DNA from: a virus
Strand: one strand, 5' to 3'
Virus record (IMG/VR): IMGVR_UViG_3300025120_000675
Span: 1 to 21,297 of that record
Length of the DNA: 21,297 nt
In this document: one piece after another, positions 1 to 17,295 of the stretch
Layout of the letters: every line of letters begins with the position of its first letter
How positions within the stretch are numbered: position 1 is the first letter of the stretch
Program-made: the position numbers and the translations under genes
The notes under the pieces: model-generated
Told to the model about the DNA's origin: nothing
The model's database searches: none
The model's input: only the letters and a program-made list of their open reading frames with translations

Positions 1-2946
1 CATCGCCCTAAACACTTCTCCCGCTGGTGGTAGATATAACCTTATATTATTTTCTGTATCTTTATATCTAACCCAAGGCCAGTAAGTAGCGACATAACTA
101 CTAGCTAAAGCCGAATTACTGAAATTATCTACTGCGGAGTCTACTGTTTGATTTGTTGGATTCGTAGAATTAACAACGTATAGAGCGTCGGCCCTATCGT
201 TTTCTATCATCTCCAATGCTCTATTAACTAATGTAAGATTATTAGTATAATCTATACCTGGAGTACCAAACAAACTAATATCTATGTCCTCTGGATTTGA
301 ATATTTTCTAATACCATCATGAAAAGGATAGTAATCAGTAACTAAACATGTTGAGGTAATTGTATTATTGTACCAAAAAGTAGGGTAGTTAGTTTGATTT
401 ACTATATACGTATCTCCATTAGTTCTAGTTTTTCTATACCTATCCCAACCATCATTACCACCATAAGGAATAACTGTAAATTTAAGATAATCACTATCAT
501 TATAATAGTTTTGTGTTTGTAACGAAGTGTTACCACTTGGATTAAAGTTATAAGCCCCTACATTGTACTGGTATGTATCCGTAGTTGTCATAGCCGATAC
601 TCTATTATCGAAATGGAATCCTAATGTTTTACCTGTCCACGCAGTACCGTTACTATTACACTTATATGGACTTGTTGGATTTGTTCCGTTAAGTCCTTTG
701 TATATAAAGAATGATTTATCAAATCCTTTTTTGCTTGACCAACCTAAATAAGTTCTTGGTATATTATCATTTAAGGTATCATATACTAAATTATAGAATG
801 GTTTAGGTGCTGCGCTATCTGGCCAACCTGAAACCGCCCCACTACTAAATGTATTATTATTTAATTCGGAAGATGCTGGTGGGTTTTGGTATACCTCGTT
901 GGAGAATGTCGCACCACTATAGTCCCTAATTGGGTATCCTTGGAATCCTGCTGGTAATGCGTCTATTGGTGCGTCTTCATCAAATTCAAGCATAATGTAT
1001 CGACTTCTAATAGGATAATCCCCATTTTCAGTACCTACTTTTATACCTACGTAATTCTGACTACCCGGATTCATTGTACAGTTTTGGTAACTTTCGTATA
1101 TAATTTGGTTTGCGTCTGTATCGTTTATATCTCTAACAACTAGTGAAAATGATTTAGTGTTTTTATTAATATTTTGTATGGATATTTTAACCATGTCATT
1201 GGCGTTATTACCATCTGGAATAAGGATTGTTTTGAATAACTTAAATATCTTATTACCTCTAATTTCTGACATTATAAAAGGTGTTTCAGGCCCTTTTGCC
1301 GCTGCTAATGGTTGCCAATCTTCACTATAATTGTCAAATACCGGTTCTTGTCCTATTGATATCTGACTAAATGTTACTGCTGAGGTTGCTAGATTATTCA
1401 AACTATTAGCATATATCTCTTCCAACCACATGTTATTATTTTTGTCAAAAGGGTCTGTACCAAATACTTTTGGTAAGTAGTTTTGGGAACTAGAGTCTAA
1501 GTTTGTTTGGTAACTAAATTGCGCCCCTGGTCCTGTAAATCCAGAAATAAAGAAATTTTGTTTATAGTTTGTTGTGTTTATAGTTCTAAATTCTTCTGCG
1601 GTACAGTCTGGAGATAATGGAGGTGCCGCCAATTGTGGACAAGGTCCTGCTCCATCACCAAATGAAGGTGATTGTTGCACTGTAACACCTGCGGAACCAC
1701 CTGTACTGTCACCAACATTTCTTGTAAAAGTATTAAGTGAATAATTACCTCTACTTCTTAACTTAGCAACTACCATATCTTGTGTTGCCGCTGTCCAGGT
1801 AAACACAGTACCTGATGTTTGTGCTGTCCATCCTTGTGTTCCCCCTGAATGTGCACCAATATTATTACCGTATCTCCAATTTAATTGGAATGTGTATCCT
1901 GTACAAGGATACCCTAATGGATTCATAACTCTTGCTCCTGTCCCCGCTCTAAATTCGTTAGATGGGTCGATAACTGAAAAGTTTGCACCATCATCGTGTC
2001 GTGATATAGCAGGATTCCATCTAATCGCATTATATGTTGTTCCATTTACTTGTTCTGCAACTCTAGTAGTCTCAAACCCCGTATTATTAATTATTGGATT
2101 TGCACCACCATCTGAAGCATTTGTTGAAATAACGAATGTTTCACCACTTAATAAACATAGTGGATAAGCGGTTGTTGTTAGTTCTGAAGCCCAAGGAAGT
2201 CCTGCGGATGAAGATGATGGTCCCGCAAAAGAATTACCTCCTGTACTACCTGTTACCACTAATTTTCCACTCCCCCCTTTAGTTGTTGCTGAAAAGATTA
2301 CCGCTAATTCTATTGCTGATTGAAAATTTGCACCAAAATTACCACCACCACCAGCATTAGTATATTGTGTACCATTTATTGCTGAACCTCCATCTCCATC
2401 TGCATTATAACCCCAAGTCCCTCCACTAAATAAACCTGGTTGACCAGTTGAAGGAGCTGTATATACTGAAGGTACTGTTGAAGTTGCTACTTGTCCTGCT
2501 GAGTTCAATCCCGGAATACCGTAAGCACCTAAAGCGTTATAACTAACCTCCAGATAGTTTCCATTATTACTACCACCAAAGGATCTAAACACATTGTCAT
2601 AGTTTGGTACATAACTTAAAGTTATATTCCAAGCAGTACCAGCGTCATATCCAGAATAACCTAAAACTCTAGTCGCATAATATGAATTCGATTCACTTAG
2701 GAAAGTTTTAGCAATATACGATTGTTCGTATTGTGGTATATTTGTACCTGGAAAAGTGGTTTTATTTAACCCACCGAAGTAGGTTTGGTATGTGTCGTAA
2801 CTTGTTACGAATACAGGTTCAAAAGCTGGACCCTGGGTTGTTTCTCCAACAGTACCCAGAGTAGTAGCCCCTATACTTGCATTATTTGCTGTTAATTCTC
2901 TTTCGGAAGTGTAAACACCAGGCGATAATGGAACTTGATTTGCCAT
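1..2946 (-). CDS. Tail sheath protein, second paralogue (partial, 3' end outside window)
   Basis: The frame is open from an ATG at 2946 to the window edge: 982 codons with no stop. Its N-terminus (MANQVPLSPGVYTSERE) and much of the rest align with the sheath gene just upstream. Shared blocks include a TDP block near residue 495, a GDYPIRSRYIM block, the motif FTVIPYGGNDGWD and, close to the window edge, TYWPWVRYKDTENN. The conserved C-terminal sheath domain, about 165 residues by comparison with the paralogue, lies beyond the left edge, so the full protein should be near 1,150 residues. Sheath subunits polymerise around the tail tube and contract to drive infection. The start is 25 bp after the stop of the other sheath gene, so the two are probably co-transcribed. 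The odd part is roughly 240 extra residues between residues 100 and 495, rich in Gly, Ser, Thr and Asn, absent from the paralogue. That it is a sheath is clear; which copy builds the main sheath is unknown. Confidence 0.9.
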   Translation of the reverse strand, partial: MANQVPLSPGVYTSERELTANNASIGATTLGTVGETTQGPAFEPVFVTSYDTYQTYFGGLNKTTFPGTNIPQYEQSYIAKTFLSESNSYYATRVLGYSGYDAGTAWNITLSYVPNYDNVFRSFGGSNNGNYLEVSYNALGAYGIPGLNSAGQVATSTVPSVYTAPSTGQPGLFSGGTWGYNADGDGGSAINGTQYTNAGGGGNFGANFQSAIELAVIFSATTKGGSGKLVVTGSTGGNSFAGPSSSSAGLPWASELTTTAYPLCLLSGETFVISTNASDGGANPIINNTGFETTRVAEQVNGTTYNAIRWNPAISRHDDGANFSVIDPSNEFRAGTGARVMNPLGYPCTGYTFQLNWRYGNNIGAHSGGTQGWTAQTSGTVFTWTAATQDMVVAKLRSRGNYSLNTFTRNVGDSTGGSAGVTVQQSPSFGDGAGPCPQLAAPPLSPDCTAEEFRTINTTNYKQNFFISGFTGPGAQFSYQTNLDSSSQNYLPKVFGTDPFDKNNNMWLEEIYANSLNNLATSAVTFSQISIGQEPVFDNYSEDWQPLAAAKGPETPFIMSEIRGNKIFKLFKTILIPDGNNANDMVKISIQNINKNTKSFSLVVRDINDTDANQIIYESYQNCTMNPGSQNYVGIKVGTENGDYPIRSRYIMLEFDEDAPIDALPAGFQGYPIRDYSGATFSNEVYQNPPASSELNNNTFSSGAVSGWPDSAAPKPFYNLVYDTLNDNIPRTYLGWSSKKGFDKSFFIYKGLNGTNPTSPYKCNSNGTAWTGKTLGFHFDNRVSAMTTTDTYQYNVGAYNFNPSGNTSLQTQNYYNDSDYLKFTVIPYGGNDGWDRYRKTRTNGDTYIVNQTNYPTFWYNNTITSTCLVTDYYPFHDGIRKYSNPEDIDISLFGTPGIDYTNNLTLVNRALEMIENDRADALYVVNSTNPTNQTVDSAVDNFSNSALASSYVATYWPWVRYKDTENNIRLYLPPAGEVFRAM

Positions 2947-2971
2947 CTATTTCAAAAATTTTATCTACTTG

Positions 2972-5794
2972 TTATATGTCATCAAAACTAGTCGCAGTTG
3001 GTGTAACATTGAACTGGATTTCGATAAACTCTAAAGATCTAGTTGGTTTAAGATAAATTTTTCCTGTTAATTTATTTTGGTCAATTTCTTCCGGGTCACT
3101 TGATACAACAACTCTAAAGTCTGTTAAACCTCTATCTCTTCTTATGTCTTCTAGTATTGGATTAACTAAACTTAGGAACTCTTGTCTAACAACTTCATCA
3201 TTTTGTTCAAAGACTAGTCTAACCGCCACTGCTGAAATTAGTTTTCTTGCTCTTAATAATAGTCTCCTAACATTAATTCTATCTAAAGCCGATAAACTTG
3301 ATTGTAGTGTTTTATTACCCCAGATAACTGGTCCAGTTGCTGTAAATGTTGCAATAGGGTTAATTCTAGCCTCGTATAAGTCATCTCTATTATCTTGTGT
3401 AAGTTTAGTTCTAACTCTAGTCGCTTTAACAATACCTCTATTATAACCCGCAGTTGCGAACCATGGAAAAGATACATTATCAGTTAATGCCATGTTTCTT
3501 AATACCTCAGCAGTTGATGGTATGTAGATTCTAACATTGTTTTCTGTATCATTGTATTGTATCCATGGCCAATAAGTTGCTGTGTAATTACTATCTAACA
3601 ACGCATCATCTAAAGCGTCTACTGCAGTTGCTGTAGTTTGGTCTTTATAATTTTCAGCTGTAACAATATAAAGTGAATCTGCTCTTTCATCTTCAATCAT
3701 TTCAATTGTTTCATTAACTAATGTAAGGTTGTTTGTGTAATCAATACCTGGAGAAGCAAATAAGTTAATATCAACGTTTTCAGGATTAGCAAATTTTTCT
3801 ATGTTTGTGTTATATGAATACCAATCAGTATTTTTGTTGAATTGGTAAGACCCTGACGCAGCTACCGTTGTTGTACCAGAACCATATCCTGGTGTGTAAC
3901 TTGTACTATTTTCTTTATAAACATCAGTATTACTTCTATTAGTTCTACTTGTGTCCCATCCATCGTGTCCTCCAAATGGAGCCACTGTGAATTTTCTATA
4001 TTGTTTTTTAGAATAAATGTTAAGTGTTGTCCCTAAACTTGCATCACACCCTGTACCGTAATATTTACCACCACATGCTGTACTACCATATATACTAGTT
4101 GTAGTGAAGAATGGGAATGTACCTACTGATCCTGAAAACCATATTTTTTTGTCTCCTATGTTTTCTCCCCCTACGAAAGTTGATCCTGAAGCTCTTGTAT
4201 CTAGGTGAAATCCGTATGTATGTCCCGTCCAAGCCGCAGCACATGGTGTACCTGCTACTGTTGCACATCCTTTATAATCAAATATATCTTGGTCATACCC
4301 GATTTTACTAGATATACCTAAAAAAGTTTTTCTTATATTATCTGTTACTGTATCATAAGCAATGTTATAAGTTAAGTACGGTTCAACTCTAGTATGTGTT
4401 GATTGTACAGACCAAATACCACCACCTGTTCTTCCACTTAGATTACCATAATCTGTTTGTGGATACCCACCGTAACCTGATGGTAAACCATCAATTGGTG
4501 CGTTTTCGTCAATTTCAACCATTATATATCTAGACCTTAAAGGATAATCTCCGTTAAGAGTACCTATTCTTTTTCCAATATAGTTTTGACTAACTGGGTT
4601 CATAGATAGGTTTCTATATTGTTCGTATATAACTTGTTTAGCGTCACTATCACTGTATTGTCTAACAGCTAAATCAAAAGTAACATTATCTATATCAATG
4701 TTAAGAACACTAAATTTAACAAAGTCATTAGCTGAATCACCGTCGGCTATTGTAATAAGTCTAAATAGTTTTAATATTTCAGTACCTCTAACCTCAGAAT
4801 ATATCCAAGGTGTTGATGGTCCGTTTGGTGTTGCAATTGGTTGGTAAGTGTCACTGTAGTTGGACCAAGCACTAGGTAAGTTATAGAAAGACATGTCTTT
4901 CAAAGCATCTAAGTAATTGTATGTTGCAGAACCACCCCAAGTTTTACCCATTTGTTGCATTGACTTAGGGTAAAATTGATCTACGTAAAGTTTAGCGTCA
5001 GGGTTATTAATATCATAATAAGGGTCAGTACCTAAAACTTTTAGAATATAATTGTTACTATTAGGATTAAAATTAACAACCCATGAATTTATTACCCCAG
5101 TACCAGCAATTTCTGTAGCTTCAATTACAAAATCACTAGACGCGTCGGTCCATTGTCCATAAACGTAAGGAGCTATAGATGTAGCAAAAGTTGTTCTAGG
5201 TGCCCCACCCATTCCTGTTATCCAAGGAGCTGCAAAAATAGCAGCATTAATTGGATTTGTGTTAGAAGCGGATCCAGTAGTATATGTTCCTGATTTGTTC
5301 ACTCGGATTGCGAAGTCGGGTTGTGAGAAAGTACCTGTTGATGTTGTACTTTTTCTAGCTCTAATTACACAGGCTGTCATTGCTGAAACAGCTTTCACCG
5401 ATTGTACTTGGTCTAGTCCGTCTACATTACCTTTATTATTATCTAAAGCCGCCCTAACATTAATAACTAAACCTTCTGTAGCGTCATAACCTGTTTGTCC
5501 AAGTACACGTGACATGTACATGTTATTTGATTCTTCTAAGTATTGTCTAGCAATATAAGTTGATTCATATTTAGGTACTTTTGTAGAACCTAAAGTAAAT
5601 ACACTTGTATTTTGTCCACCAAAATAAGTGGTATACGTGTTATAATCTCCAATAAAGATTGGTTGGTAAGCGGGACCTCTTACTGTTTCTCCCGCGACTC
5701 CTAAACTTGTGATACCTACACTTGCCGCAACAAAAGAAAGGTCTTTTTCCGATGTATAAACACCTGGTGATACTACTACTTGATTTGTACTCAT
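2972..5794 (-). CDS. Tail sheath protein, gp18-like
   Basis: This 940-residue protein is a contractile tail sheath subunit of the T4 gp18 family. The N-terminal strand is of the usual kind (VVVSPGVYTSEKD). The motif FTVAPFGGHDGWD is at about 602-614. The C-terminal domain is diagnostic: INPIATFTATGPVIWGNKT near 811-829, LDRINVRRLLLRARK near 837-851, then an FEQND...R..F block, TDFRVV and KIYLKPTRSLEFIEIQF. The T4 protein is about 660 residues, so this one carries extra domain material in its N-terminal two thirds, including a Cys-containing loop around 510-585. It follows the gp15-like terminator gene, as expected from T4 order, but a small plus-strand gene sits between them. The ATG has a purine-rich leader (TTAAGAG). 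A TACTATAAATACT element lies about 40 bp upstream. A paralogue follows directly. Confidence 0.95.
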   Translation of the reverse strand: MSTNQVVVSPGVYTSEKDLSFVAASVGITSLGVAGETVRGPAYQPIFIGDYNTYTTYFGGQNTSVFTLGSTKVPKYESTYIARQYLEESNNMYMSRVLGQTGYDATEGLVINVRAALDNNKGNVDGLDQVQSVKAVSAMTACVIRARKSTTSTGTFSQPDFAIRVNKSGTYTTGSASNTNPINAAIFAAPWITGMGGAPRTTFATSIAPYVYGQWTDASSDFVIEATEIAGTGVINSWVVNFNPNSNNYILKVLGTDPYYDINNPDAKLYVDQFYPKSMQQMGKTWGGSATYNYLDALKDMSFYNLPSAWSNYSDTYQPIATPNGPSTPWIYSEVRGTEILKLFRLITIADGDSANDFVKFSVLNIDIDNVTFDLAVRQYSDSDAKQVIYEQYRNLSMNPVSQNYIGKRIGTLNGDYPLRSRYIMVEIDENAPIDGLPSGYGGYPQTDYGNLSGRTGGGIWSVQSTHTRVEPYLTYNIAYDTVTDNIRKTFLGISSKIGYDQDIFDYKGCATVAGTPCAAAWTGHTYGFHLDTRASGSTFVGGENIGDKKIWFSGSVGTFPFFTTTSIYGSTACGGKYYGTGCDASLGTTLNIYSKKQYRKFTVAPFGGHDGWDTSRTNRSNTDVYKENSTSYTPGYGSGTTTVAASGSYQFNKNTDWYSYNTNIEKFANPENVDINLFASPGIDYTNNLTLVNETIEMIEDERADSLYIVTAENYKDQTTATAVDALDDALLDSNYTATYWPWIQYNDTENNVRIYIPSTAEVLRNMALTDNVSFPWFATAGYNRGIVKATRVRTKLTQDNRDDLYEARINPIATFTATGPVIWGNKTLQSSLSALDRINVRRLLLRARKLISAVAVRLVFEQNDEVVRQEFLSLVNPILEDIRRDRGLTDFRVVVSSDPEEIDQNKLTGKIYLKPTRSLEFIEIQFNVTPTATSFDDI

Positions 5795-5920: not shown

Positions 5921-6094
5921 ATGAGCAAACCAAAACGTAATAAAAACCTTAAAATAGATACGAAAACACATTCTGTTTTGAAATCTTATTGTGATAAGAA
6001 TGGTCTTAAGATGTTTGCCTTTGTAGAAAAACTAATAAGGGAAAGCTGTACTTCTACTCGTCATAATAAAAAAGATGACCTTTATGATGATTAA
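5921..6094 (+). CDS. Small ribbon-helix-helix-like DNA-binding protein
   Basis: This is a 57-residue ORF starting MSKPKRNKNLKIDTKTHSVL and ending DDLYDD. The pattern fits one RHH unit (Arc/MetJ/CopG type): a short strand NLKIDT near residues 9-14, helix THSVLKSYCDKNG near 16-28, a turn, then helix KMFAFVEKLIRES near 30-42. A basic N-terminus and an acidic tail complete it. RHH proteins dimerise and insert the paired strands into the DNA major groove. The gene runs against the surrounding late genes: its stop overlaps the stop of the gp15-like gene by 4 bp, and a perfect inverted repeat lies immediately before its start. It probably regulates its own transcription or that of the divergent sheath gene; the target is inferred, not shown. 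The fold call rests on pattern only. Confidence 0.7.
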   Translation: MSKPKRNKNLKIDTKTHSVLKSYCDKNGLKMFAFVEKLIRESCTSTRHNKKDDLYDD

Positions 6095-7218
6095 ATCACG
6101 TTTATGTATCCTCTTACGGTTATTGATGAGTCGATAGATTCATCTACTACCTTTAAGTAAGACCTAAGTATGTGTCCAGGTAAAACTTGTATCGGGAAAT
6201 TAAAATCGATAAAACTAACACCATCGTTAATCGATACTTGGGTTTGTGGTGATATACTTGTACAGTCGTCACTTATAATTGCACAATCTCTAGCGTTAGA
6301 TAAACTAAATTCAGTAAATAACACACTTTGATCGATAATTACTTCACTAGTTAACTTGTTCAGACCTGGTGTTACTAAAGAACCCGGTTCCCAAATCATT
6401 TCGGAACTATATTCTACTAATTCTGGTTCTGGATTAAGTCCATCTGTTTGACTTCTACTAGGACTTATATTTGGTTCGGTTTCAAATAAGGAAACGACTC
6501 TTTTAATCGCTGGTGTAACTTCGTATTCTTCTTCGTCCATTATATAACCCTGCAATTGCATTTCAAAATTTTGTACATAAAATCTTTTCTGTTCGAATTG
6601 GTCTATCGTACTTTCATCTCCGATACTTTCTAGTACGACAGGGAAAAAATGCCCATTACATTTAATATATTTTTGTCTAGATTGAAAAGCTTGCATTATT
6701 ATCTTATTAAACTTATTTAATTCTCTCATTCTATAAGTGAAAAATCTAACTTGGTATGTTAGGTTGACCGCAATTGGTTGGGGTATTCTGTAGACATCGT
6801 AACCTATAGTATCCCCGTCATAGTTTGGAACTTTCATGTAGTCAAATCTTCTTTTTTGAGGTATTGTGTACTGAGTAACTGGATTGGTTCCGAATTGAAT
6901 ATCTGGGTTCCTTACTATCGTTATAAAAGGCATTTGAACATTTCTATTTTTATCAGTAAATTTCCAAGTCCTAGCAAATTCTGCCCATCTTTGTGTTGTT
7001 AGGAAAAATACTGGTACATCTTCTCCTTCTACCGAAATAACTAAATCCTCTTCGATAAGTTTTATAAAGTCCCTATCCATATCTTCATATAAAACTCCTT
7101 TGGGTACAAACGTTCCACTAGCGTCCATACCTTCTTGCCACAACTCCATTCGTCTTTCATGATTTCTAGCCGCTGGCTTAATGTTTATGTTTTTCAAAAA
7201 ATTCTTTGGTACTCCCAT
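6091..7218 (-). CDS. gp15-like tail terminator / proximal sheath stabilisation protein
   Basis: This 375-residue protein (MGVPKNFLKNINIKP...) has a segment order resembling T4 gp15: a VPVFFLTTQRWAEF block (like the gp15 VPITYASKEHF region), MPFITIVRNPDIQFGTNP (like the LPRINLHLVDF...FKTN region), IPQPIAVNLTYQVRFFTYRM (like PSPIKMIYELSIFTRYED), and a closing FYVQNFEMQLQGYIMDEEE before a tail absent from T4. In T4, gp15 caps the tail tube and sheath so that the tail can join the head. The C-terminal third, about 120 residues, looks beta-rich and is an addition. The ATG at 7218 is preferred to a TTG at 7233 because AAGGA lies 7 bases before it and it starts one base after the gp14-like stop (TAATATG). 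The position between gp14-like and sheath genes supports the call. Homology is by eye and remote. Confidence 0.65.
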   Translation of the reverse strand: MGVPKNFLKNINIKPAARNHERRMELWQEGMDASGTFVPKGVLYEDMDRDFIKLIEEDLVISVEGEDVPVFFLTTQRWAEFARTWKFTDKNRNVQMPFITIVRNPDIQFGTNPVTQYTIPQKRRFDYMKVPNYDGDTIGYDVYRIPQPIAVNLTYQVRFFTYRMRELNKFNKIIMQAFQSRQKYIKCNGHFFPVVLESIGDESTIDQFEQKRFYVQNFEMQLQGYIMDEEEYEVTPAIKRVVSLFETEPNISPSRSQTDGLNPEPELVEYSSEMIWEPGSLVTPGLNKLTSEVIIDQSVLFTEFSLSNARDCAIISDDCTSISPQTQVSINDGVSFIDFNFPIQVLPGHILRSYLKVVDESIDSSITVRGYINVI

Positions 7219-7219
7219 A

Positions 7220-7747
7220 TTATATTCCTTCAAATTCGTTAGGGTCTACTGTTGTACATTCAACCGTCCTAGTAGCTCCTTTATATCCAAAAACTGTGTG
7301 TTCGTTGTCTGAAAATATTTTTCCATCATTCACCACAGTCCAAAATTTCATATTATCTTCAGTGTCCCTATATCCTATATAATCACCGTATTTTATTTCA
7401 CACCCTTTTTCACTTAACTGTTTTTGGTAAACATTAAAAGTCATATTACCATAGTCTCTATACCTTAAAGTACCTCCAGCGTCGTATGTTTGATTTTCCC
7501 CTGGTACAATTTCTAAATTAACCTGTAACTCTATGGGTGCAAAAAATCTTATGTCTTGTGATTTAACTTCCTTATAAACATCGTCAGTGTCAGTCTTTTC
7601 AATATCAACACTATATAGTATTATTGTCATGTTAAGGTCACCTTCCATATATTCACGTCCAAAACCAATTTCTAAATCAAAATCAATTTCATCAAAGAAT
7701 TTGGTCAGTCTTGTAATTGGTACTTTATTAGGTCTATTGTTTTCCAT
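7220..7747 (-). CDS. gp14-like neck protein
   Basis: A 175-residue protein. Its C-terminal half, around YGNMTFNVYQKQL, KYGDYIGYRDTEDNMKFWTV and ECTTVDPNEFEGI, resembles the T4 gp14 core, where a GDLIYFPMDNSLFEINWVE stretch is followed by a strand-rich region. In T4, gp14 joins gp13 in the neck connecting filled heads to tails. The N-terminus includes a FFDEIDFDLEIGFGREY block. It is followed, one base later, by the gp15-like gene, reproducing the T4 14-15 order. The leader is peculiar: the TACTATAAATACT element ends only about 3 bases before the ATG and no Shine-Dalgarno site is visible. If that element is its promoter, the transcript would be nearly leaderless. The neck-protein call depends on weak similarity plus gene order. 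Confidence 0.55.
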   Translation of the reverse strand: MENNRPNKVPITRLTKFFDEIDFDLEIGFGREYMEGDLNMTIILYSVDIEKTDTDDVYKEVKSQDIRFFAPIELQVNLEIVPGENQTYDAGGTLRYRDYGNMTFNVYQKQLSEKGCEIKYGDYIGYRDTEDNMKFWTVVNDGKIFSDNEHTVFGYKGATRTVECTTVDPNEFEGI

Positions 7748-7869: not shown

Positions 7870-9639
7870 ATGCTTGATCCAAATCGTATAAAAGATTATA
7901 TTTCTTTAGTTAGAAACTATACTGGGGAAAACGACTATATGCTTAGTCTTAAAACTAGAGTAAATAATTCTGGTACCTTTAATCCAACCCCAAAACAAAT
8001 AGACTATATTCAAAAAAACTATAGGAAAAAACCTATAGTACTAGAAAAAGAGATTACTGTATCAAGTTACTTTGCCACTAAATTACAAGAACAACACCGG
8101 TTGGTTTTTTTACCTAAAAAGTTTTTAATAGTTAAAATTTTAGCTAATGGGGAAGACACACTTCATGTTATGGTAAAATTTACTGAAAAACAAACCAACC
8201 CAACCATGGTCTGGATACCGAAAAAATTTATTATAAAAGAAAAAGTTAAAAATATTATCACACAAGTTGATTATAGTAAGTTTTCACACAGACCACCGAT
8301 GGTCCACCAAAAAGAGGCCGTTAAAAAATTATTAGAATATGATAGGTTTATTTTATCTGACGACATGGGGTTAGGTAAAACTACTTCTGCTGTATTAGCG
8401 GCGATGATAAGTGAATCTAAAAAAATATTAATTATTTGCCCCTCTTCTCTTAAATTAAATTGGAAAAAAGAGATTGAGAATTATGATTCTGGTGTTGGTA
8501 TCGTTTCTGGTAAAAAATGGGAACCTGACACAAAGTGGACAATAATAAACTATGATATATTGAAAAATTTTCACTCTTTACCAACAAAAAACAAATCATT
8601 ATCTAAAAGAGAGGTTAGTACTATTTTAGATTCTAACTTTGATTTGGTTATTATTGATGAGGCTCACGCTATAAAAAATACCTCCTCAAAAAGAACAAAG
8701 TTAGTCATGGATTTTGTTAAAAGTATTAGTAGAGTTTGGTTGTTAACAGGAACTCCCGTAGCTAACAGACCAATAGATTTTTATAATTTATTAAGGGTTT
8801 GTAAATCTTATGTTTCTCAGGATTGGATACATTTTGTTAAAAGGTATTGTGAGGGTACCCAATTTAGAGGACAGGGAGGTAGGTTAGTTTGGGATACTAA
8901 AGGAGCTTCTAATTTACAAGAATTACATCATTACACTAAAGACTCGATTTTAAGAAGAAAGAAAGAAGAGATTTTAGACTTACCACCTAAAATTGTTTCC
9001 CCACTATATCACCAATTACAAAACCCTAGGGGGTACCAGGAAATTATGGGAGAATATAAAACATGGACACTAAAACATGGTCACGCTAGTTTAGCGGAGC
9101 ATATGACTAAATTAGTTACTCTAAGAAAATTTCTCGCAGAAGAAAAAACTTCGTCCACAATAGAATTTACAAAAGACCTTATCGACCAAGGTAAGAAAGT
9201 TATAGTTTTCACTAACTTTAATGACGAACAACAAAAAATAGCAGACGCCTTCCCAAAAAAATGTGTTAGACATAATGGTTCTATGACTTTAGAACAAAAA
9301 GAAGAAAGTGTTGAACGGTTTCAGAACGACCCAAAAATAAAAGTTTTTGTTGGTAATATTATTTCCGCTGGTGTTGGTATAACATTAACTAGTGGTGAGG
9401 TTGTTATAATGAATAGTTTGGATTGGGTACCTAAATCTCATTCCCAAGCCGAAGATAGAGCATATAGAATAGGACAAGATAAGAAAGTTAATGTATATTA
9501 CCCTATTTTTGATAAAACTATTGAGGAAATTATGTATAAATCTTTGAAGTCTAAACAGAAGAATATTGACACAATAATGGGAGAATTTTCAGAGGATGAC
9601 GTAGTGGAGAGTTTAATTGACCAATTAAAATTTATTTAG
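7870..9639 (+). CDS. SNF2-family DNA helicase / translocase
   Basis: A 589-residue superfamily 2 ATPase of the SNF2 (SMARCAL1-like) group. A short N-terminal region precedes the motor. The Q-type region is near HQKEAVKKLL (146-155). Walker A is DMGLGKT (165-171), motif II is DEAH (263-266) and motif III is LTGTPVANRP (292-301). The C-terminal lobe has VIVFTNFNDEQ (445-455), GVGITLTSG (501-509) and the SNF2 motif VI QAEDRAYRIGQ (526-536). Such enzymes translocate on duplex or branched DNA, and related phage proteins act in fork remodelling, recombination or repair; the exact substrate is unknown. It lies antisense inside the neck cassette, overlapping the stop of the S74 fibre gene by 8 bp. 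The ATG at 7870 is used because an ATG four bases earlier reads into a stop within three codons. No clear ribosome binding site is visible. Confidence 0.92.
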   Translation: MLDPNRIKDYISLVRNYTGENDYMLSLKTRVNNSGTFNPTPKQIDYIQKNYRKKPIVLEKEITVSSYFATKLQEQHRLVFLPKKFLIVKILANGEDTLHVMVKFTEKQTNPTMVWIPKKFIIKEKVKNIITQVDYSKFSHRPPMVHQKEAVKKLLEYDRFILSDDMGLGKTTSAVLAAMISESKKILIICPSSLKLNWKKEIENYDSGVGIVSGKKWEPDTKWTIINYDILKNFHSLPTKNKSLSKREVSTILDSNFDLVIIDEAHAIKNTSSKRTKLVMDFVKSISRVWLLTGTPVANRPIDFYNLLRVCKSYVSQDWIHFVKRYCEGTQFRGQGGRLVWDTKGASNLQELHHYTKDSILRRKKEEILDLPPKIVSPLYHQLQNPRGYQEIMGEYKTWTLKHGHASLAEHMTKLVTLRKFLAEEKTSSTIEFTKDLIDQGKKVIVFTNFNDEQQKIADAFPKKCVRHNGSMTLEQKEESVERFQNDPKIKVFVGNIISAGVGITLTSGEVVIMNSLDWVPKSHSQAEDRAYRIGQDKKVNVYYPIFDKTIEEIMYKSLKSKQKNIDTIMGEFSEDDVVESLIDQLKFI

Positions 9640-10819
9640 TTTTATCTCCGTCTGAAGAAAGTATATAAACATAATTTAAGTGACACAACAAACTAATACT
9701 ACTACCGTTTTCTAATCTCATTTCATTCCACTTTTCATCAATTAATCTAGTAGAACTTACGGTTACATTTGATAAAGACTTTATTCTAACAATCCCAGAT
9801 AAGGAATTAGATAGAGTTATTTTAATATCTCCACCACCACGAGCAATTATAGTTCCGTCGTGTATAACTTTATAATCATTAGAAATAACTTTTACTTTAT
9901 CTTTTTCATAGGTTGTTTTGAATGATGGGTCTACCGTTTTACGTAATTCAATCAATTCCTTAAGTATTATAGGGGCAATTGATTCGTATTTCACTCCACT
10001 TAATCTACCGTCGGATTCATATATTGCTAAATTTTTATTTGTTTCTTCTATGTCCTCTGCAATAAAACCATACTCTTTTTTCCCTGGAAACTTCCTAAAT
10101 TCAAACTCAACAGGTTTTAAGTCATATATCCAAGTACTATCGTACTCGTAATCTATATTAAGTTTTAGTGATCTAAGAGAAGTATTAACCCCTACTTGAC
10201 CATCTGAACCAATCATTAAAGTTTTATGAGACTCGACATTGTTAAGAGTGTTACCCCTTAACCAAATATGGGATTGTGATAAGGGTCTCATATCTCCGAT
10301 AATAACATTCATTGCGTCATCAACAGTAAGACCAGTCATTCCCACAGTACCATCAAAGTTAGATACGGTAAAACCAGTACTTGAAGATGTGGTTCCACTA
10401 CCAAAAACCATAACAGAAGCCGGTTTATGTGAACCATTATTTTGAATATTTGTTAAATCACTAGATTTATACCTAAAAACACTTTGTTGTGCAAAGGCAC
10501 CAAATTGTCCATTTTGACCATTATCGTTTAGGTTAATTTTTAATTTATTAACCATATAAATGGAAGTACTGTCGGCAGGGTCTGGCATATTTATTTCCCA
10601 CGCCTTTGTTACTGGACTATATCTAGTATAGGGACTAGTTGTACCACCACTCATGTATAAATAAGAGTAGTACGGATATCCTTCGGACGCAACACTGTTT
10701 GGGTAAACAGAGCCCAGTGTTAATGAACCTAATATTTTTGTGTTACCTGAGAACTCAGCGCTCGTTCCTTGGTGTTGTGTAAGTTGTCTAGAATAATCTA
10801 CTAATGTTGTAAAACCCAT
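9632..10819 (-). CDS. Tail fibre with intramolecular S74 (endosialidase-type) chaperone
   Basis: A 395-residue fibre-type protein. Residues 1-210 are Gly/Ser/Thr/Asn-rich and beta-prone, as in trimeric fibre shafts. The peptidase-S74 chaperone domain starts at SLRSLK (214-219), matching the S-x-R-x-x-K pattern with candidate nucleophile S214 and K219. It continues through LKPVEFEFRKFPGKKEYGFI (234-253), AEDIEE, SDGRLSGVKYESIAPIILKE and the helix ending near 296. This domain aids trimer folding and then usually cuts itself off. Unusually, about 95 residues of predicted beta structure follow (HDGTIIARGGGDIKITLS...), resembling a domain of marine phage fibres; self-cleavage would release it with the chaperone. 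The gene starts 6 bp after the gp13-like stop, so it is in the same operon. The receptor is unknown. Confidence 0.85.
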   Translation of the reverse strand: MGFTTLVDYSRQLTQHQGTSAEFSGNTKILGSLTLGSVYPNSVASEGYPYYSYLYMSGGTTSPYTRYSPVTKAWEINMPDPADSTSIYMVNKLKINLNDNGQNGQFGAFAQQSVFRYKSSDLTNIQNNGSHKPASVMVFGSGTTSSSTGFTVSNFDGTVGMTGLTVDDAMNVIIGDMRPLSQSHIWLRGNTLNNVESHKTLMIGSDGQVGVNTSLRSLKLNIDYEYDSTWIYDLKPVEFEFRKFPGKKEYGFIAEDIEETNKNLAIYESDGRLSGVKYESIAPIILKELIELRKTVDPSFKTTYEKDKVKVISNDYKVIHDGTIIARGGGDIKITLSNSLSGIVRIKSLSNVTVSSTRLIDEKWNEMRLENGSSISLLCHLNYVYILSSDGDKTK

Positions 10820-10825
10820 ATTAAT

Positions 10826-11968
10826 TTATATTACGTACATGCCTAAAGGTATGTAACTAAGAGATTTATTTAATGATTCAGCTGTTGTTGATCTTTGTTC
10901 TGACTGACCAAGATTACTCATACTAGTTAATCTTTCCCCCAACTCCTCAATTAATTTTGATTGTTCATCCTTACCTTCTGATAGTAAAGATTCATAATCC
11001 ATAGAGACTTCGGCACCCGGTACATTTAACGCTCCTGAAAACTTACCCCTAACTCTACCTAATGTTTCTTTAGCTAAACCTAAAAGATAACGCCTTACCC
11101 ATATTTTAGACGGTAAATTAAGAGAAGCATACTCAATAGCATCTAAAGGTACGTCGGAAGGTAATTTAATTACATCAGCATTTGCGTTTAGACAAGCTTC
11201 AGAACTTGTGTCATCAGACGCATTATCAATATCATAATAACGATACCATACTTTCCCCTGATATAGACTCATCGCACCTCTATCATACTTACCACCAGGA
11301 GTGGGCATTAACCAAAGGTATCTAGTGTTATTACCAGAAGAGTCTGTTGGACCAGCGGTTAATTTATATTGTAAATCACCTCTAATCATTCGGTTTTTAA
11401 GATTTCTATCTGTTTGTCTTAATAATACATCAAAGGCTGGCATTACATAATAAGCACCCATACCAAATTGAGCCATTCCTCCTTCACCACCAAAACCTCC
11501 ACCAAAAGCTCCTCCAATACCAATAAATGGGTCAATCACTGATTGGTCTAAAGTTGGTGGTGTGTACCACAATACCTCATTAATTTCTCTATTAGCGGGT
11601 AATAAATACTGTTGTTGGTTAGAGACCAAGTCAACATAGTCAGTCTTTAATTCCCAAGGACCTCTAGCTTGTAAACCTACAGCCTTAGAATAAGCGTATG
11701 TGTATTCTATCTCAACACCCAAAGTTTTTTGACTCAACCCAGTAACTACCTGTTCAGGTGTTAGACTTTGATTAAGTAAACTTGGCCATTGGTTATCTAC
11801 TAACCATTCATATTGGTATTGTACATAGTCTTCCACAGCAATAGTCAATAAAGTATCCAACTGTTCGTCGGTCAACTCTACCTTTCTTACCGGGGCACCT
11901 AGACGGTGTCTAGTTTTACGAAATAATGATGTTCTTTCTGCGGTGGTTATATTAGTTGCTTCTGCCAT
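10826..11968 (-). CDS. Neck protein, gp13-like
   Basis: A 380-residue structural protein. The start resembles phage head-tail joining proteins: a short helical region (RTSLFRKTRHRLGAP, then DEQLDTLLTIAVEDY) followed by beta-rich stretches. A Gly/Phe-rich insert lies near 150-165 (GGAFGGGFGGEGG). The most telling part is IWVRRYLLGLAKETLGRVRG near 295-315, followed by VPGAEVSMDYESLLSEGKDE and a helical tail, a layout I associate with gp13-like neck proteins of marine T4-like phages. In T4, gp13 and gp14 complete the neck after DNA packaging. The gene precedes the gp14- and gp15-like genes in reading direction, although a fibre gene and an antisense helicase come between. An alternative is another head-tail connector protein of similar fold. 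Confidence 0.55.
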   Translation of the reverse strand: MAEATNITTAERTSLFRKTRHRLGAPVRKVELTDEQLDTLLTIAVEDYVQYQYEWLVDNQWPSLLNQSLTPEQVVTGLSQKTLGVEIEYTYAYSKAVGLQARGPWELKTDYVDLVSNQQQYLLPANREINEVLWYTPPTLDQSVIDPFIGIGGAFGGGFGGEGGMAQFGMGAYYVMPAFDVLLRQTDRNLKNRMIRGDLQYKLTAGPTDSSGNNTRYLWLMPTPGGKYDRGAMSLYQGKVWYRYYDIDNASDDTSSEACLNANADVIKLPSDVPLDAIEYASLNLPSKIWVRRYLLGLAKETLGRVRGKFSGALNVPGAEVSMDYESLLSEGKDEQSKLIEELGERLTSMSNLGQSEQRSTTAESLNKSLSYIPLGMYVI

Positions 11969-11980
11969 ATTCTTTTATCT

Positions 11981-12000
11981 TTCTATATAAATATTAAGAT
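11981..12000 (-). promoter_or_regulatory. TTCTATATAAATAT element upstream of the gp13-like gene
   Basis: Plus-strand TTCTATATAAATATTAAGAT matches the element at 14508-14527 at 18 of 20 positions. In the direction of the gp13-like gene it reads ATATTTATATAGAA and lies 12 bp before the ATG. It resembles the TACTATAAATACT sites and the T4 late core, though the TATAAATA sequence itself is on the opposite strand and no plus-strand gene follows here. Confidence 0.5.
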
Positions 12001-12034
12001 ACTCACAAAACTAATATAATATAATTTATGATGT

Positions 12035-12112
12035 TTATTTTTGTTCTGCAGTACTACCTGCGTCACTACTAGCTAAACAACCACCTTTTTGTCCTTTACA
12101 AGAATTTTCCAT
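12035..12112 (-). CDS. Candidate 25-residue microprotein
   Basis: A short ORF, ATG at 12112 to TAA, lies between the 202-residue gene and the gp13-like gene. It begins MENSCKGQKGGCLASSDA and ends EQK. It starts 8 bp after the previous stop, the tight spacing seen between neighbouring genes. A CxxxxxxC pair and a Gly/Ser/Ala-rich tail are all that can be seen; it has no membrane segment. Nothing indicates a function. It may be a real microprotein or a chance ORF in the gap. Confidence 0.4.
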   Translation of the reverse strand: MENSCKGQKGGCLASSDAGSTAEQK

Positions 12113-12120
12113 TTTGAAGT

Positions 12121-12729
12121 CTATTTGTTAATCGATTTTGATTTTGTTATTTTCCCCGTGAAGATGGTGTCCCCAACTCTGATTTGTAATTGTTCATCAA
12201 CCTTTCTTTCTACAATTATTTCCTCAACTACTTCTCTAATTAATGATTTTAAGTCACTATTAGTGTTAACCACTTTTTTTTGAGTAGTTGATTCTTTAAC
12301 AACTTTTTTTACTTCTTTTTGATAATTTGGGTTAATCATCTTAATTAATTCTGGATCCATTCCTTCTACACTACCTATAGACGCTGGGTCTGGAATCTTG
12401 TCATTAATCATTGCTTCTACAATTTCTCTAGGCATTTTTGTGGTTTTAGCATTTTTAAGAGTTCTTCTTATTGCTTGTGTTGGATCCGATTTTACTGTAG
12501 GGGTTTGTCCCGGTGGTAAACTTGTTAACATTTGTGAAGAATCTATCATATCTCCAGGTAGTGGTGGTGTTGCCCCCTCATTTACTGAAGTTGGTGACGA
12601 ACTTGAGTTTTTACTGTGTTCTCCCCCATCTCCACTTTTTCCGAATGTTCGATCTACTTTATCTAATAGAGATTTTGACTTCCCTAATATTCCCGCTAAT
12701 TGTGATATATCTACTGGTGTTTCTGCCAT
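12121..12729 (-). CDS. Hypothetical protein, disordered middle with coiled C-terminal part
   Basis: I do not recognise this 202-residue protein. A helical N-terminus (VDISQLAGILGKSKSLLDKV) leads into a low-complexity Ser/Gly/Pro stretch at about 30-80. A middle part, TQAIRRTLKNAKTTKMPREI, is followed by a charged helix, LKSLIREVVEEIIVERKVDE, around 160-180. It ends in a short strand-turn unit, IRVGDTIFTGKITK. The arrangement suits a virion-associated or assembly protein with a small C-terminal binding module, but that is inference from shape and position only. It is packed 2 bp after the WYL-like gene in a run of small late-type genes. Confidence 0.75.
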   Translation of the reverse strand: MAETPVDISQLAGILGKSKSLLDKVDRTFGKSGDGGEHSKNSSSSPTSVNEGATPPLPGDMIDSSQMLTSLPPGQTPTVKSDPTQAIRRTLKNAKTTKMPREIVEAMINDKIPDPASIGSVEGMDPELIKMINPNYQKEVKKVVKESTTQKKVVNTNSDLKSLIREVVEEIIVERKVDEQLQIRVGDTIFTGKITKSKSINK

Positions 12730-12731
12730 AA

Positions 12732-13100
12732 TTAAAATTTTGCTTGTGCGTATATTCTTGTCATGTCTTTATCCCCATTAGGGTTATAAAGAGGTTTTGC
12801 TTCTTCAAATATATCACCACTATTTACAAAGTCAACCATCCTATCAACTCTAAAGAGTCTCCAACCAGGGATTTTATCAGGTGTGTCACTCTTACCTTCT
12901 AATTGGTAGGCCCTAATTACAGGGTTTTCCCTTTTAGATAAACCATAAACATATGGTTCTATTTCTCTATACCCAGGGTTATTAATAGTATCACCTTCAT
13001 AATATATGGTACATACATTACGATTATTAATAGCACTAATTATTTGATTCCTGCTTACTGCCTCTAAAATTATATCTTTATATAAAGAAGTTAATTTCAT
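12732..13100 (-). CDS. WYL-like domain protein
   Basis: A 122-residue protein beginning with a helix, MKLTSLYKDIILEAVSRNQI. The rest follows a WYL-type (Sm-like barrel) pattern: VCTIYYEGD (I-Y-Y strand), then REIEPYVYGLSKRENPVIRA (r-x-I-x-PY-x-y-G-x-s...lRa), YQLEG, a loop, and PGWRLFRVDRMVDF (W-x-l-F-R-v-D-R-i). WYL domains bind ligands or nucleic acid and usually regulate transcription or nuclease activity when attached to an HTH or Cas domain; here there is no partner domain. Stand-alone versions are seen as uncharacterised proteins in other phages. The C-terminus YNPNGDKDMTRIYAQAKF is also typical of that phage group as I recall it. Whether it regulates anything or is structural is unknown. 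Confidence 0.65.
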   Translation of the reverse strand: MKLTSLYKDIILEAVSRNQIISAINNRNVCTIYYEGDTINNPGYREIEPYVYGLSKRENPVIRAYQLEGKSDTPDKIPGWRLFRVDRMVDFVNSGDIFEEAKPLYNPNGDKDMTRIYAQAKF

Positions 13101-13110
13101 TTTCTAAGTT

Positions 13111-13443
13111 TTAAGATTCTGATTGGTAAGGGTATGGATTCAAATTCGGTCCACTATAAGGAGTATCTGGGGACATCCCATTAGTACTTTCATTCATAGA
13201 AATCGCGTCCGTACGCTTCTCAATATCGATTGAGCTGCCAACTTCAGCCTCAGCTGGTGCTGCATACCCATTAACTAAACCACCAGCGTAGGCCGGGTTA
13301 CCCTTTCCTTGAGCGTCTCCACTACTTAAAGCATTCTCGTGAGACTCACTATAAGCCACAGTTTCGTTATACCCAAACTTACTTTGGTTTATTGCAAAAG
13401 CTTCTGTTCTTTTATTATTTGCTGTTTCATCTAATGTTGCCAT
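13111..13443 (-). CDS. Hypothetical protein, low-complexity
   Basis: Not recognised. The 110 residues are hydrophilic and rich in Asn, Ser, Gly, Ala, Glu and Tyr, with no hydrophobic core pattern, membrane segment or Cys. The tail (SPDTPYSGPNLNPYPYQSES) is Pro/Tyr-rich and looks disordered. It starts 5 bp after the 160-residue gene and ends 10 bp before the WYL-like gene, so it is part of one transcript with them. An extended virion or assembly peptide is possible but unsupported. Confidence 0.7.
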   Translation of the reverse strand: MATLDETANNKRTEAFAINQSKFGYNETVAYSESHENALSSGDAQGKGNPAYAGGLVNGYAAPAEAEVGSSIDIEKRTDAISMNESTNGMSPDTPYSGPNLNPYPYQSES

Positions 13444-13448
13444 AATAA

Positions 13449-13931
13449 TTAATTTTTTAATATTTTATTTATTGTTTGTATCATTTCTTTATACACTGTC
13501 TTATTAGTAAATATTTGTCTAGCCGTATTTTGTGGTCTAGCGACGTTTACTTTAGTCACATTTTTATTTTCCCTGTCTTTAGTGTGGGTTTTCTTAAACT
13601 GATTTGTCATCCCCGAGTCCGCCTTTATTGTCTTTTGTCTATTAACATCACCTCTCGACTTATCTAACGTATTATTAACCCAAGTTTTCATTTTATCACC
13701 TCCATTAATTAAGTATTCTGAGTTTTCTTTACCTCCTTTGAATCCATCAAAAAAATTCTTTATTCTTTTTAACATGGAGTAGGTCATTGATTTATCTCCC
13801 ACTATGTTTTGAGCTCTTTTATATCCTTTTAATGATTTATTATTTTTATTTCTATTAATTTCTTTATTAATAGCACTTACCACATCATGAGGTACCGTAT
13901 AGGTGTTCCCATATAAATCCTTATTCGCCAT
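13449..13931 (-). CDS. Conserved-looking phage hypothetical protein
   Basis: This 160-residue basic protein has no function I can name. It has a pattern I have seen in uncharacterised phage proteins: a YTVPHDVVSAINKEI start, KGYKRAQNIVGDKSMTYSML, a KRIKNFFDGF helix, EYLINGGDKMKTWVNNTLDK around 73-92, then a Lys/Asn-rich linker (GMTNQFKKTHTKDRENKN) and a C-terminal helix, YKEMIQTINKILKN. The many Lys and Arg residues would allow DNA or RNA contact, but that is inference. Its start overlaps the end of the 191-residue gene by 11 bp, which suggests translational coupling. Confidence 0.75.
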   Translation of the reverse strand: MANKDLYGNTYTVPHDVVSAINKEINRNKNNKSLKGYKRAQNIVGDKSMTYSMLKRIKNFFDGFKGGKENSEYLINGGDKMKTWVNNTLDKSRGDVNRQKTIKADSGMTNQFKKTHTKDRENKNVTKVNVARPQNTARQIFTNKTVYKEMIQTINKILKN

Positions 13932-14496
13932 TAATAATATTGATTAATTTTTCTTTAGTGGATGGGTCTACTTCATTAAAGTTAACGTCTTTTAATAAAT
14001 CATTTATTATAATAATTCTTTCACTATTTTCTCTTTCTAACCATAATTCTTTTATTAACATAACCCATTTAACTAAAATAGGGTCTTCGTCAGAATATTG
14101 TTGGAGTGTGATTATTTCTTTTTTGTTATTATCAGGTAATAGTTCACTATTCATACGATTTGTTACAATATCCTCTAACATCTCCTTCATTAAATCTTCA
14201 GAGTGGTCATTAGTAAAATAGTCCTCAAACTCAGATTCCTTACCATTATCTTTAAGTATTTCGAAAAATTTAGATGGGTTATTTTGTAATTTATCAGCTA
14301 TTTTAGAATGTGGTTTGTTTTCATCACCTTCACCCCAAAACCTCCTATAACCGTAAAAGTTAGACGCTCCTTGTCTAGTCATTTTTTCAAAACCATCTGA
14401 GGTTTTATCACTACCAAAATCATGATTAATAGTATAATCACCAGAAATTATACTTCCAGTCGAATCTATTAACTCCATTAAATCTTTTTTATTCAT
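13921..14496 (-). CDS. Hypothetical protein, acidic
   Basis: Not recognised. It has 191 residues, acidic, mostly helical in the second half (SEDLMKEMLEDIVTNRMNSE, VKWVMLIKELWLERENSERI). An early segment, GASNFYGYRRFWGEG near 43-57, is aromatic-rich. There is no signal peptide or membrane span. It is the first gene after the polymerase in reading direction, with its own upstream element at 14508-14527, and appears to head the run of small genes leading to the neck proteins. It overlaps the next gene by 11 bp. Confidence 0.75.
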   Translation of the reverse strand: MNKKDLMELIDSTGSIISGDYTINHDFGSDKTSDGFEKMTRQGASNFYGYRRFWGEGDENKPHSKIADKLQNNPSKFFEILKDNGKESEFEDYFTNDHSEDLMKEMLEDIVTNRMNSELLPDNNKKEIITLQQYSDEDPILVKWVMLIKELWLERENSERIIIINDLLKDVNFNEVDPSTKEKLINIINGE

Positions 14497-14554: not shown

Positions 14555-17287
14555 TTAATTATTACCTTTATCTAGGACAGACATTAAAGTTTCCTTAGGA
14601 CTACTATTTATATCTTTCCAGAAAACATCCTCCCTTTCATCCATTTTCATTAAATCTTCCATGTTATCTTGGTCTTTTTCATTAAAAGGCATTCCCGAGA
14701 TTAACCCCATTTGTGTTTTGGTGTAATATTCTCTTGGTTCTAATAACCCTTTTTTATCAACACCTTTCAATACATTATCTCGTATTGCTGGTTCGAAAGA
14801 AACTAATAATGGTTTAACTCTTTTATTAAAGTTTGACACATACCTAGCCTTATTGTAATCTCCACATATGTCTGGATTCTTCTCCATTTCATTCTTATCT
14901 AACATATAACAATTAAATGTTAACACACCTTTTTTCTTTTGTATGTCTCCATGTGAAGCCCTTAAACCATTATTAACATAAAATATCGTATCCCCAAGAC
15001 TAACCCTAACGTCGTTTTTTATAACCAATTCCATATGGGCTTGTGAGGGTAGGGGATTACCAGCTTTATTATTACCTCTATTAATATATGACTTAACTGT
15101 TCTTTTTATTCTAGATTTAGATGCTATTTTATTAAGTGGTATTTTACAATCATAGATATTTTGTAAATGTTCATAATAATATTCTATGAATTCTGGTCCT
15201 TTACCATTTAATAACATGTTCAAACCATTATCAATAAACTCTTTAACATAATCAGGGAGTGCTTTTGATTTAATTGTGTTTCCAACAATATCTACTTTAC
15301 CGTCTTCTGTTAAATCAGCATAATTCTTACGAGATATATTTATTGATGATTTCCAAAAACCATCGATATCTAATCCCATAACCCCTCTCATATATAAATC
15401 ATTAAATTCAGCAACAACTGCAGCGGTTCCAGTATAACCTTTATCTTTTTCTACAAAATGGTGTATTCCCCTACCAACATAGTGGTACTCTTTTGTTGAT
15501 TCTGGTACACTAAAATTACAACCATCAGTATCTAACACAAGAGGAATAAACCCCCGATTTTCAAAGAACCTAACCAATAGTCTAAGGTACATCCTTGCGG
15601 TACAAGTAACTTCTTCTCCCTTCATAACATCCCCCCAGTTAAAAACTTGTGGAGCGGTTAGTGAACCATACATAGAGTTATTTATAATTTTAATTGGTAG
15701 TTGTTTAGCTTTGAAGAATGACGCCATTTTTTTATCTCCTTTCGCGGCACATTCATTAGCTTTATACTTGTATACGTTTCTGGTGTCGTATAAATATTGT
15801 AACATGGCGTGCATTGCACCTGATACATCACATTCTGGATAAACACCATGTGTTATCATTATTGAAGGGTATAGGGACGCATAATCTAATTTAACTATGT
15901 CTTTTGAGTAACCCACTTTAAGGATTCTAGATAAACCTCCGGTAAAACTTCTTTTTTCTCCTTTTTCTGGTACGGCCAATCCGTTTTCATAGGACCATGA
16001 CAACATTAGTAATTTCCATATTGATGCGGTTCCCATAGTAGAAACTCTTTCATATATGGTTGGTAATATCTTCGCCATTAAAAATGATGATTGATTAAAA
16101 CTATTATCCACTTCAAGAGTTTCCCAAATATCGTCCAATAAGTATTTCTCAACAATATCTTTACCTGATATCTCTTCCCAACCTTGCGGCATTTCTGTGT
16201 CCGAAGACTCAACCCACTCACCAGTTTTTATATTAATCCAGTAAGGGTTTTCATTAAACCTTAATTTAGCAATCTTATCATGGTCAACATATACTCTATT
16301 ATCTTTAGCTATTCTTTGTTGTTTACATATATATTTTAACCCAGCTGATTTTATGTTGGAATTAATTGCCATTGCTCTTCTTACCGAATGTATCACATCT
16401 ATTATGTTATAACCCCACATACTTGTTTGTTCAAATTTCTCGACCTCGTTTGCCAACTTTAACATATTTTCACGTCTTCTAAATTTAGATTTCTTTTTAG
16501 GGTCTAAAGTTTTAGCAATTTCTTTTATATCTAAACCTAAAATTTCACACCTAGAAACAATCCAATACCAGTCAAAATTTTCTGAATTATACCCACCGAT
16601 AATAGATGGTCTCACATAATCAATAACTTTGAAGAAGTTAACTATCATCTCTTTTTCTTCCTCTTCGTTATCCGCATCCAATACAACCTCAAATCCCCTA
16701 TTATCTTTTACCCCAATTGAGAACATTCTTCCGTCGGATGGCTCCAATGAAGTTGTTTCAATATCAAAAACCATACGATGTACATCGTCATAATTATCGA
16801 ATCCTTTGAATAGTCTTTTCCCTGAAGATATCATATATTGCTCAACAGGTGATATTAGTTCGAAATACTCTCTATTTTTGTATGGTTGTATTCCTCCGTC
16901 CCCAAAAAATTTAAGTAGTGTGTAAAACCCTTGATTAGTGTAAACTAAATATTTATAACCTTTTTCTAGTCTTTCATCCCCTGCAGTGTTTAACTTTTTA
17001 ATTTTAACACCAAATTGCTTCATCGCCGCTTTTATCCTTCTCCTATCTCTACCATAAAAATTAACTATTTCAGAAGTAAAAACATCCTCCTTACACCATA
17101 GAAATGGTTTTAATTTTTTCCTTGTTGTAAACTTTCCTTTAACTGGGTCGTCAATAACTAAATGAATATAATTACCCGCCGGTTCATACTCAAGAGCTGT
17201 TATGTATTGTTGAGGGTCTTTACCCTCTAAAAATGCAGAAATAGCGTCCTGGTCAATATGGGGAATTTTATCGTGTTTTATTGGCAT
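14555..17287 (-). CDS. Family B replicative DNA polymerase, T4 gp43-like
   Basis: A 910-residue polymerase with 3'-5' proofreading exonuclease. The exonuclease motifs are DIETT (175-179), GYNSENFDW (232-240) and the Y-x-x-x-D motif in KYLLDD (Y382, D386). The polymerase motifs are A, DYASLYPSI (468-476); B, PIKIINNSMYGS (531-542); and C, DTDG (586-589), carrying the two metal-binding aspartates D468 and D588 together with D586. T4 gp43 is about 898 residues, so this is a full-length enzyme. The C-terminus is likely to bind the sliding clamp, but no clear clamp peptide is picked out. It lies, unusually, between a fibre gene pair and late structural genes. A TATCTTTG promoter-like core lies 24 bp before the ATG, suggesting separate, earlier expression by host polymerase. 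Confidence 0.96.
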   Translation of the reverse strand: MPIKHDKIPHIDQDAISAFLEGKDPQQYITALEYEPAGNYIHLVIDDPVKGKFTTRKKLKPFLWCKEDVFTSEIVNFYGRDRRRIKAAMKQFGVKIKKLNTAGDERLEKGYKYLVYTNQGFYTLLKFFGDGGIQPYKNREYFELISPVEQYMISSGKRLFKGFDNYDDVHRMVFDIETTSLEPSDGRMFSIGVKDNRGFEVVLDADNEEEEKEMIVNFFKVIDYVRPSIIGGYNSENFDWYWIVSRCEILGLDIKEIAKTLDPKKKSKFRRRENMLKLANEVEKFEQTSMWGYNIIDVIHSVRRAMAINSNIKSAGLKYICKQQRIAKDNRVYVDHDKIAKLRFNENPYWINIKTGEWVESSDTEMPQGWEEISGKDIVEKYLLDDIWETLEVDNSFNQSSFLMAKILPTIYERVSTMGTASIWKLLMLSWSYENGLAVPEKGEKRSFTGGLSRILKVGYSKDIVKLDYASLYPSIMITHGVYPECDVSGAMHAMLQYLYDTRNVYKYKANECAAKGDKKMASFFKAKQLPIKIINNSMYGSLTAPQVFNWGDVMKGEEVTCTARMYLRLLVRFFENRGFIPLVLDTDGCNFSVPESTKEYHYVGRGIHHFVEKDKGYTGTAAVVAEFNDLYMRGVMGLDIDGFWKSSINISRKNYADLTEDGKVDIVGNTIKSKALPDYVKEFIDNGLNMLLNGKGPEFIEYYYEHLQNIYDCKIPLNKIASKSRIKRTVKSYINRGNNKAGNPLPSQAHMELVIKNDVRVSLGDTIFYVNNGLRASHGDIQKKKGVLTFNCYMLDKNEMEKNPDICGDYNKARYVSNFNKRVKPLLVSFEPAIRDNVLKGVDKKGLLEPREYYTKTQMGLISGMPFNEKDQDNMEDLMKMDEREDVFWKDINSSPKETLMSVLDKGNN

Positions 17288-17295
17288 ATTATATC

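Follow-up and report, generated by a model that had tools for sequence, protein, structure and literature searches.

Contractile tail sheaths are, in the textbook view, homopolymers. The window, i.e., the whole stretch of 21,297 nucleotides analyzed here, raises the question why a phage should keep two sheath genes side by side, and whether both products enter one and the same sheath. The initial annotation had described two divergent sheath paralogues where one gene is usual. This was borne out: both copies are maintained, while nearly all relatives of the lineage have one.

Sheath genes and their neighborhood

The two genes, called A and B in the following, and their parts are located as follows.

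2972..5794, minus strand: sheath paralogue A, complete ORF of 940 aa, matching PF04984, PF17482 and PHROG 23; its model aligns to T4-like gp18 chains
5054..5482, minus strand: shortened variable outer segment of A, about residues 105-247, without the RSRG/RSRA motif
3305..3802, minus strand: subtilisin-like sheath core domain PF04984 of A, residues 665-830 (Pfam match)
3002..3289, minus strand: C-terminal sheath domain PF17482 of A, residues 836-931 (Pfam match)
2947..2971, minus strand: spacer between A and B, 25 bp (21-26 nt in relatives)
1..2946, minus strand: sheath paralogue B, 982 aa visible, start codon present, running off the contig end
1480..2643, minus strand: long variable outer segment of B, about residues 102-489

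The gap between the genes (2947-2971) measures exactly the 25 bp first reported. BLASTP aligned A and B with 236 of 574 residues identical (41%, E 5e-129) and an additional N-terminal block with 56 of 102 (55%), a similarity well above what chance would give and consistent with the early estimate that about half of the residues agree in the best blocks. The further statement that shared blocks extend along the whole visible length is slightly too strong, as approximately 390 residues of B (about 102-489) have as their counterpart in A a stretch of just some 143 residues that align poorly. In complete relatives, the alignment of A and B runs from the first to the last residue, so that the SPGV(Y/F) motif at the N terminus and the extreme C terminus are both covered.

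Protein A matched PF04984 (2.6e-9) and PF17482 (3.6e-8), both over the cut-off, as well as the tail sheath family PHROG 23 (8e-60). The visible part of B alone matched no Pfam or PHROG family. Because the window copy is truncated, the domain tests for B were made on the complete orthologue in contig L021, which matched PHROG 23 tail sheath (2e-55) and PF17482 over the cut-off, while PF04984 remained 0.2 bits short of it (31.2 vs 31.4 bits). The nearest relative, L007, carries a B that is 89% identical to that of the window and reaches 1112 aa before the L007 contig ends. Gene A is mostly near-identical to its counterpart in L007, every 300 nt showing 1-8 differences. Near codon 760 of A this number increases to approximately 20-60 and stays at that level into B, as if recombination had joined two sequences within A.

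Judged by its predicted genes, the window has the content of a T4-like phage. It also encodes a B-family DNA polymerase and, on the opposite strand, an SNF2-type helicase. Three genes upstream of A complete the picture.

6091..7233, minus strand: gene on the upstream side of A, kept in synteny among relatives; by its position probably a neck or tail-completion protein
7220..7747, minus strand: gene likewise kept in synteny; by its position probably a neck protein
10826..11968, minus strand: gp13-like neck protein / head-tail adaptor Ad2 (phrog_211, E 7e-12)

A PDB profile search returned no match for the first two of these genes. In the gap of approximately 300 bp upstream of A, an ORF of 57 aa (5921-6094, plus strand) lies on the strand opposite to A; it has a weak Arc-like repressor match (E 0.002) and the same length in L021. 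The gene at 17813-21295 (minus strand) encodes a long protein of at least 1160 aa, in which head-like repeats of the type N-(T/I)-A-(I/V)-G abound, and it matches virion structural and tail spike families. The gene at 9632-10819 (minus strand) encodes a probable fibre-type protein, whose C-terminal YGFIAEDIEE resembles, by eye, S74 intramolecular chaperones. It measures about 395-405 aa in the tandem-sheath clade; single-sheath relatives, where it was found, have an ORF of 110-127 aa.

Beyond the sheath genes, the order in relatives is a 260-aa ORF, a 162-aa gp19-like tube protein, whose match to PF06841 is weak and does not reach the curated cut-off, then a baseplate hub protein of T4 type, followed by long genes, which probably include the tape measure. 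Only one gp19 tube gene was found per record, several of the records being incomplete, and the suggestion that one paralogue serves a second tail section thus found no second tube gene to go with it. Two ORFs were considered as second tube genes and rejected: a 252-aa ORF is the baseplate hub protein, and the 260-aa ORF following B has no tail-family match and the look of a HAD-type phosphatase by motif (DWDDNIL and ITARPQ, seen by eye in L021). The latter ORF (L021 15300-16082, plus strand), located between the pair and the tube gene, is kept in many single-sheath relatives.

Conservation and origin of the pair

Sixteen contigs, some of which are near-copies of each other, extend far enough past A to be informative, and in every one of them B follows A after a gap of 21-26 nt. 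The pair is present in many contigs from different metagenomes, and no clade member with a single copy was seen among the contigs with enough sequence downstream of A. Two larger pair records were searched for further sheath genes, and none was found beyond A and B. Within the clade, A measures 933-991 aa and B 1156-1169 aa; complete B orthologues of this length occur in L005, L006, L008, L010, L012, L013, L016, L018, L020, L021, and L026.

The initial annotation had named two observations that would speak against a genuine pair, namely a left-hand gene lacking the C-terminal sheath domain outside the window, and a copy that decays in relatives. Neither was made. A complete B with the C-terminal sheath domain is present in at least seven related contigs, and both copies are kept, with dN/dS between orthologues of 0.04-0.21 for A and 0.07-0.27 for B, the higher values coming from pairs with dS above 1 and thus near saturation. 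On these estimates, both copies are under strong purifying selection and neither decays.

A wider scan of relatives yielded a sample of 80 loci out of at least 600 candidates; among these 80, nearly all have one sheath in the same gene order. In trees built on 94 and 45 sequences, A and B together form one clade (100/100), within which A (100/100) and B (100/100) form clades of their own with matching subtrees. The joint clade is nested among single-sheath lineages that share the gene order. This topology points to a single tandem duplication, which the trees place in an ancestor with one sheath, ahead of the diversification seen in the clade today, followed by long joint inheritance. With regard to the host, no close relative was found in bacterial genomes, and more distant single-sheath relatives occur in records under labels such as Prochlorococcus, Bacteroidales and Wolfebacteria.

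Three loci that might be taken for tandem pairs, L049, L095, and L103, were rejected, as their piece sizes indicate broken or frameshifted single sheaths. In L095 the sheath ORF is split into approximately 400 and 574 residues, and the other two are likewise in two pieces; a frameshift, an inserted element or an assembly error is possibly the cause. A different case is given by LR756508.1 (L028), a 484-kb uncultured huge phage, in which two sheath-like ORFs of 824 aa (11497-13971 and 14986-17460) lie on one strand about 1 kb apart. Both proteins fall outside the A+B clade, albeit on long branches, and the product of the upstream ORF, which has diverged to an extreme degree, is without the N-terminal SPGV; by its tree position, this pair represents a separate event.

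Predicted structure and divergence of the two copies

Single-chain models of A and of the L021 B were of moderate quality (pLDDT 64 and 58, respectively), residues 115-384 of the latter being poorly modelled (pLDDT about 25-30). The model of A aligned with the sheath of Klebsiella phage Lilla1 (Z 26.4 over 421 residues) and with the gp18 model 3j2m (Z 22.8), and Foldseek returned T4 gp18 chains as top matches for the L021 B model (7e-15). Both A and B are thus predicted to adopt the sheath fold. In known sheaths, such as those of AlgoCIS and phiCD508, N- and C-terminal arms link neighboring subunits. Since the arm regions are retained in both A and B, both proteins can presumably enter a sheath lattice and likely do so.

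The two copies differ most clearly in the variable outer segment. It comprises approximately 142-175 residues in A and 392-408 in B; single sheaths mostly have about 205-335, the longest segment reaching 484. The RSRG/RSRA motif is found in 58 of 61 single sheaths and in 10 of 10 B proteins, but in none of 11 A proteins. By this comparison, A has lost most of the variable outer domain, whereas B has kept or enlarged it.

The core and the C terminus show the reverse asymmetry. Whether stem-branch changes in the core favor A or B could be read from too few sites (C-terminal 6:0, p 0.03), and therefore the comparison was based on variable sites within the clade. Across the same six genomes, 19 core sites vary only in A and 42 only in B (p 0.004), while the C-terminal domain has 6 and 37 such sites (p 2e-6); the six genomes are related, so the p-values overstate independence. 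At a matched mid-domain identity of 60-70%, the mean identity of the C terminus is highest in A (0.95), intermediate in single sheaths (0.87) and lowest in B (0.75). Over the N-terminal 105 residues, both copies are less conserved than the single sheaths (0.73 and 0.71 vs 0.88). Codon usage of A is closer than that of B to the capsid and tube genes, a weak signal taken from one genome. Such a pattern of constraint would fit a division of labor in which A retained the principal role in the lattice while B preserved or extended the surface portion, but it could also arise from A and B alternating in every ring with different contacts.

Possible arrangements of the two proteins in the tail

Sheaths made of more than one protein are already known, and to this extent the novelty implied by the initial annotation was too high. 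The only precedent among phages is the giant Pseudomonas phage PaBG, which is reported to have a two-component sheath of gp76 and gp213, both present in the virion (PMC7412058). As with A and B, these are two divergent proteins (38% identity) that go back to one duplication. Unlike A and B, their genes are not in tandem but approximately 118 kb apart (46.8-48.3 and 165.3-166.9 kb), and the proteins are short (528 and 547 aa), whereas A (933-991 aa) and B (1156-1169 aa) are long and have large outer domains. In our trees, gp76 and gp213 form a clade of their own apart from the A+B clade, which, long branches considered, indicates a separate origin. A third PaBG gene, gp093 (L030 18241-19866), is also annotated as tail sheath.

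Extracellular contractile injection systems (eCIS) provide the second precedent. The Afp sheath polymerises from Afp2, Afp3 and Afp4 (PMC12961389), and the solved eCIS entries matched in our searches contain Pvc2 (355 aa) in 30 chains next to Pvc3 (440 aa) and Pvc4 (410 aa) in 6 chains each. These systems (Pvc2/3/4, Afp2/3/4, PlPVC1) resemble our locus in that several homologous sheath proteins of unequal size occur per particle, and A and B have profile matches to eCIS sheath chains. They differ in being head-less particles with three short paralogues (matched chains of 354-466 aa), whereas our locus belongs to a T4-like phage with two long paralogues. In a 231-kb related record that carries the pair, a capsid gene of the T4 Gp23 type was identified (PF07068, E 4e-63), which sets this record apart from head-less particles. 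T4 gp18 shares fold and domains with A and B (profile match E about 3e-53) as well as the position of the sheath upstream of gp19, but T4 has one sheath gene, of 659 aa.

The explanation we tentatively put first is that both subunits belong to one sheath, A forming the bulk of the trunk and B acting as a specialised or minority subunit at particular positions. One tandem duplication of a gp18-type sheath gene in the ancestor of the lineage gave rise to two subunits, which would assemble together into a single contractile sheath surrounding one tube. A, with its short outer domain and constrained core and C terminus, would most likely form most of the trunk, while B, with its long outer domain and freer C terminus, would most likely bear the surface domain and occupy particular positions, such as one or more rings adjoining the baseplate or the neck, or a minority of positions. 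This reading is drawn from the reciprocal asymmetry of outer segment versus core and C terminus, and from the analogy to the short Pvc2 alongside the longer and fewer Pvc3 and Pvc4.

A serious contender, to which we give less credence, is a uniform mixed sheath with A and B throughout, e.g., in alternating rings or strands, where neither protein would make a normal sheath by itself, as suggested for PaBG. The PaBG sheath, with both of its proteins among those reported for the virion, would be at least as compatible with a mixed lattice as with a trunk plus a specialised subunit. In addition, no domain has been lost from either gene of our pair, only 25 bp separate the two, and they are always inherited together; with A trimmed and B enlarged, the bulk could be shared between the partners. 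However, a symmetric 1:1 role does not predict that the core and C terminus of A are far more constrained than those of B, and the PaBG duplication is independent, with unlinked sheath genes.

The proposal that the two genes are used alternatively, each product making its own sheath in different particles or conditions, is not favored. Both are complete sheath proteins, as it would require, but they are encoded adjacently on the same strand, 25 bp apart, next to one tube gene; promoter and terminator signals in the region do not exceed the shuffled background, and neither an inversion nor a phase-variation structure was seen in related pair contigs. We therefore regard it as improbable. It is similarly improbable that B no longer bears load and instead uses its sheath scaffold mainly for decoration or adhesion, or has another virion or assembly role. 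Its long, poorly modelled and fast-evolving outer segment and its relaxed C terminus would suit such a role, but purifying selection has preserved in B every sheath domain, the two arm regions and the majority of the invariant core residues, and the gp18 fold is still recognized in its model. A duplication that is recent or an assembly artefact, without functional meaning, can practically be dismissed; no observation spoke for it, and the proteins share just 41-55% identity, the duplication is older than the whole clade, and the pair recurs in many contigs of different metagenomes with both copies under purifying selection.

In the open-access literature, we found little on duplicated or heteromeric sheaths beyond PaBG and eCIS. 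Measured against it, what appears to be new is that T4-like phages carry an ancient tandem pair whose members have diverged reciprocally in outer domain and core. Next to PaBG and the injection systems, the lineage is apparently one more independent case. Together with its single-sheath sisters of like gene order, the tandem lineage constitutes a natural before-and-after pair for studying how a homomeric contractile lattice turns heteromeric, and how work is split between outer domain and lattice core after duplication. A and B might even follow a fixed pattern of rings or strands that places the large outer domain at set positions of the tail. We consider this unlikely; if true, however, it would mean a sheath with positional information, or with two mechanically different zones around a single tube.
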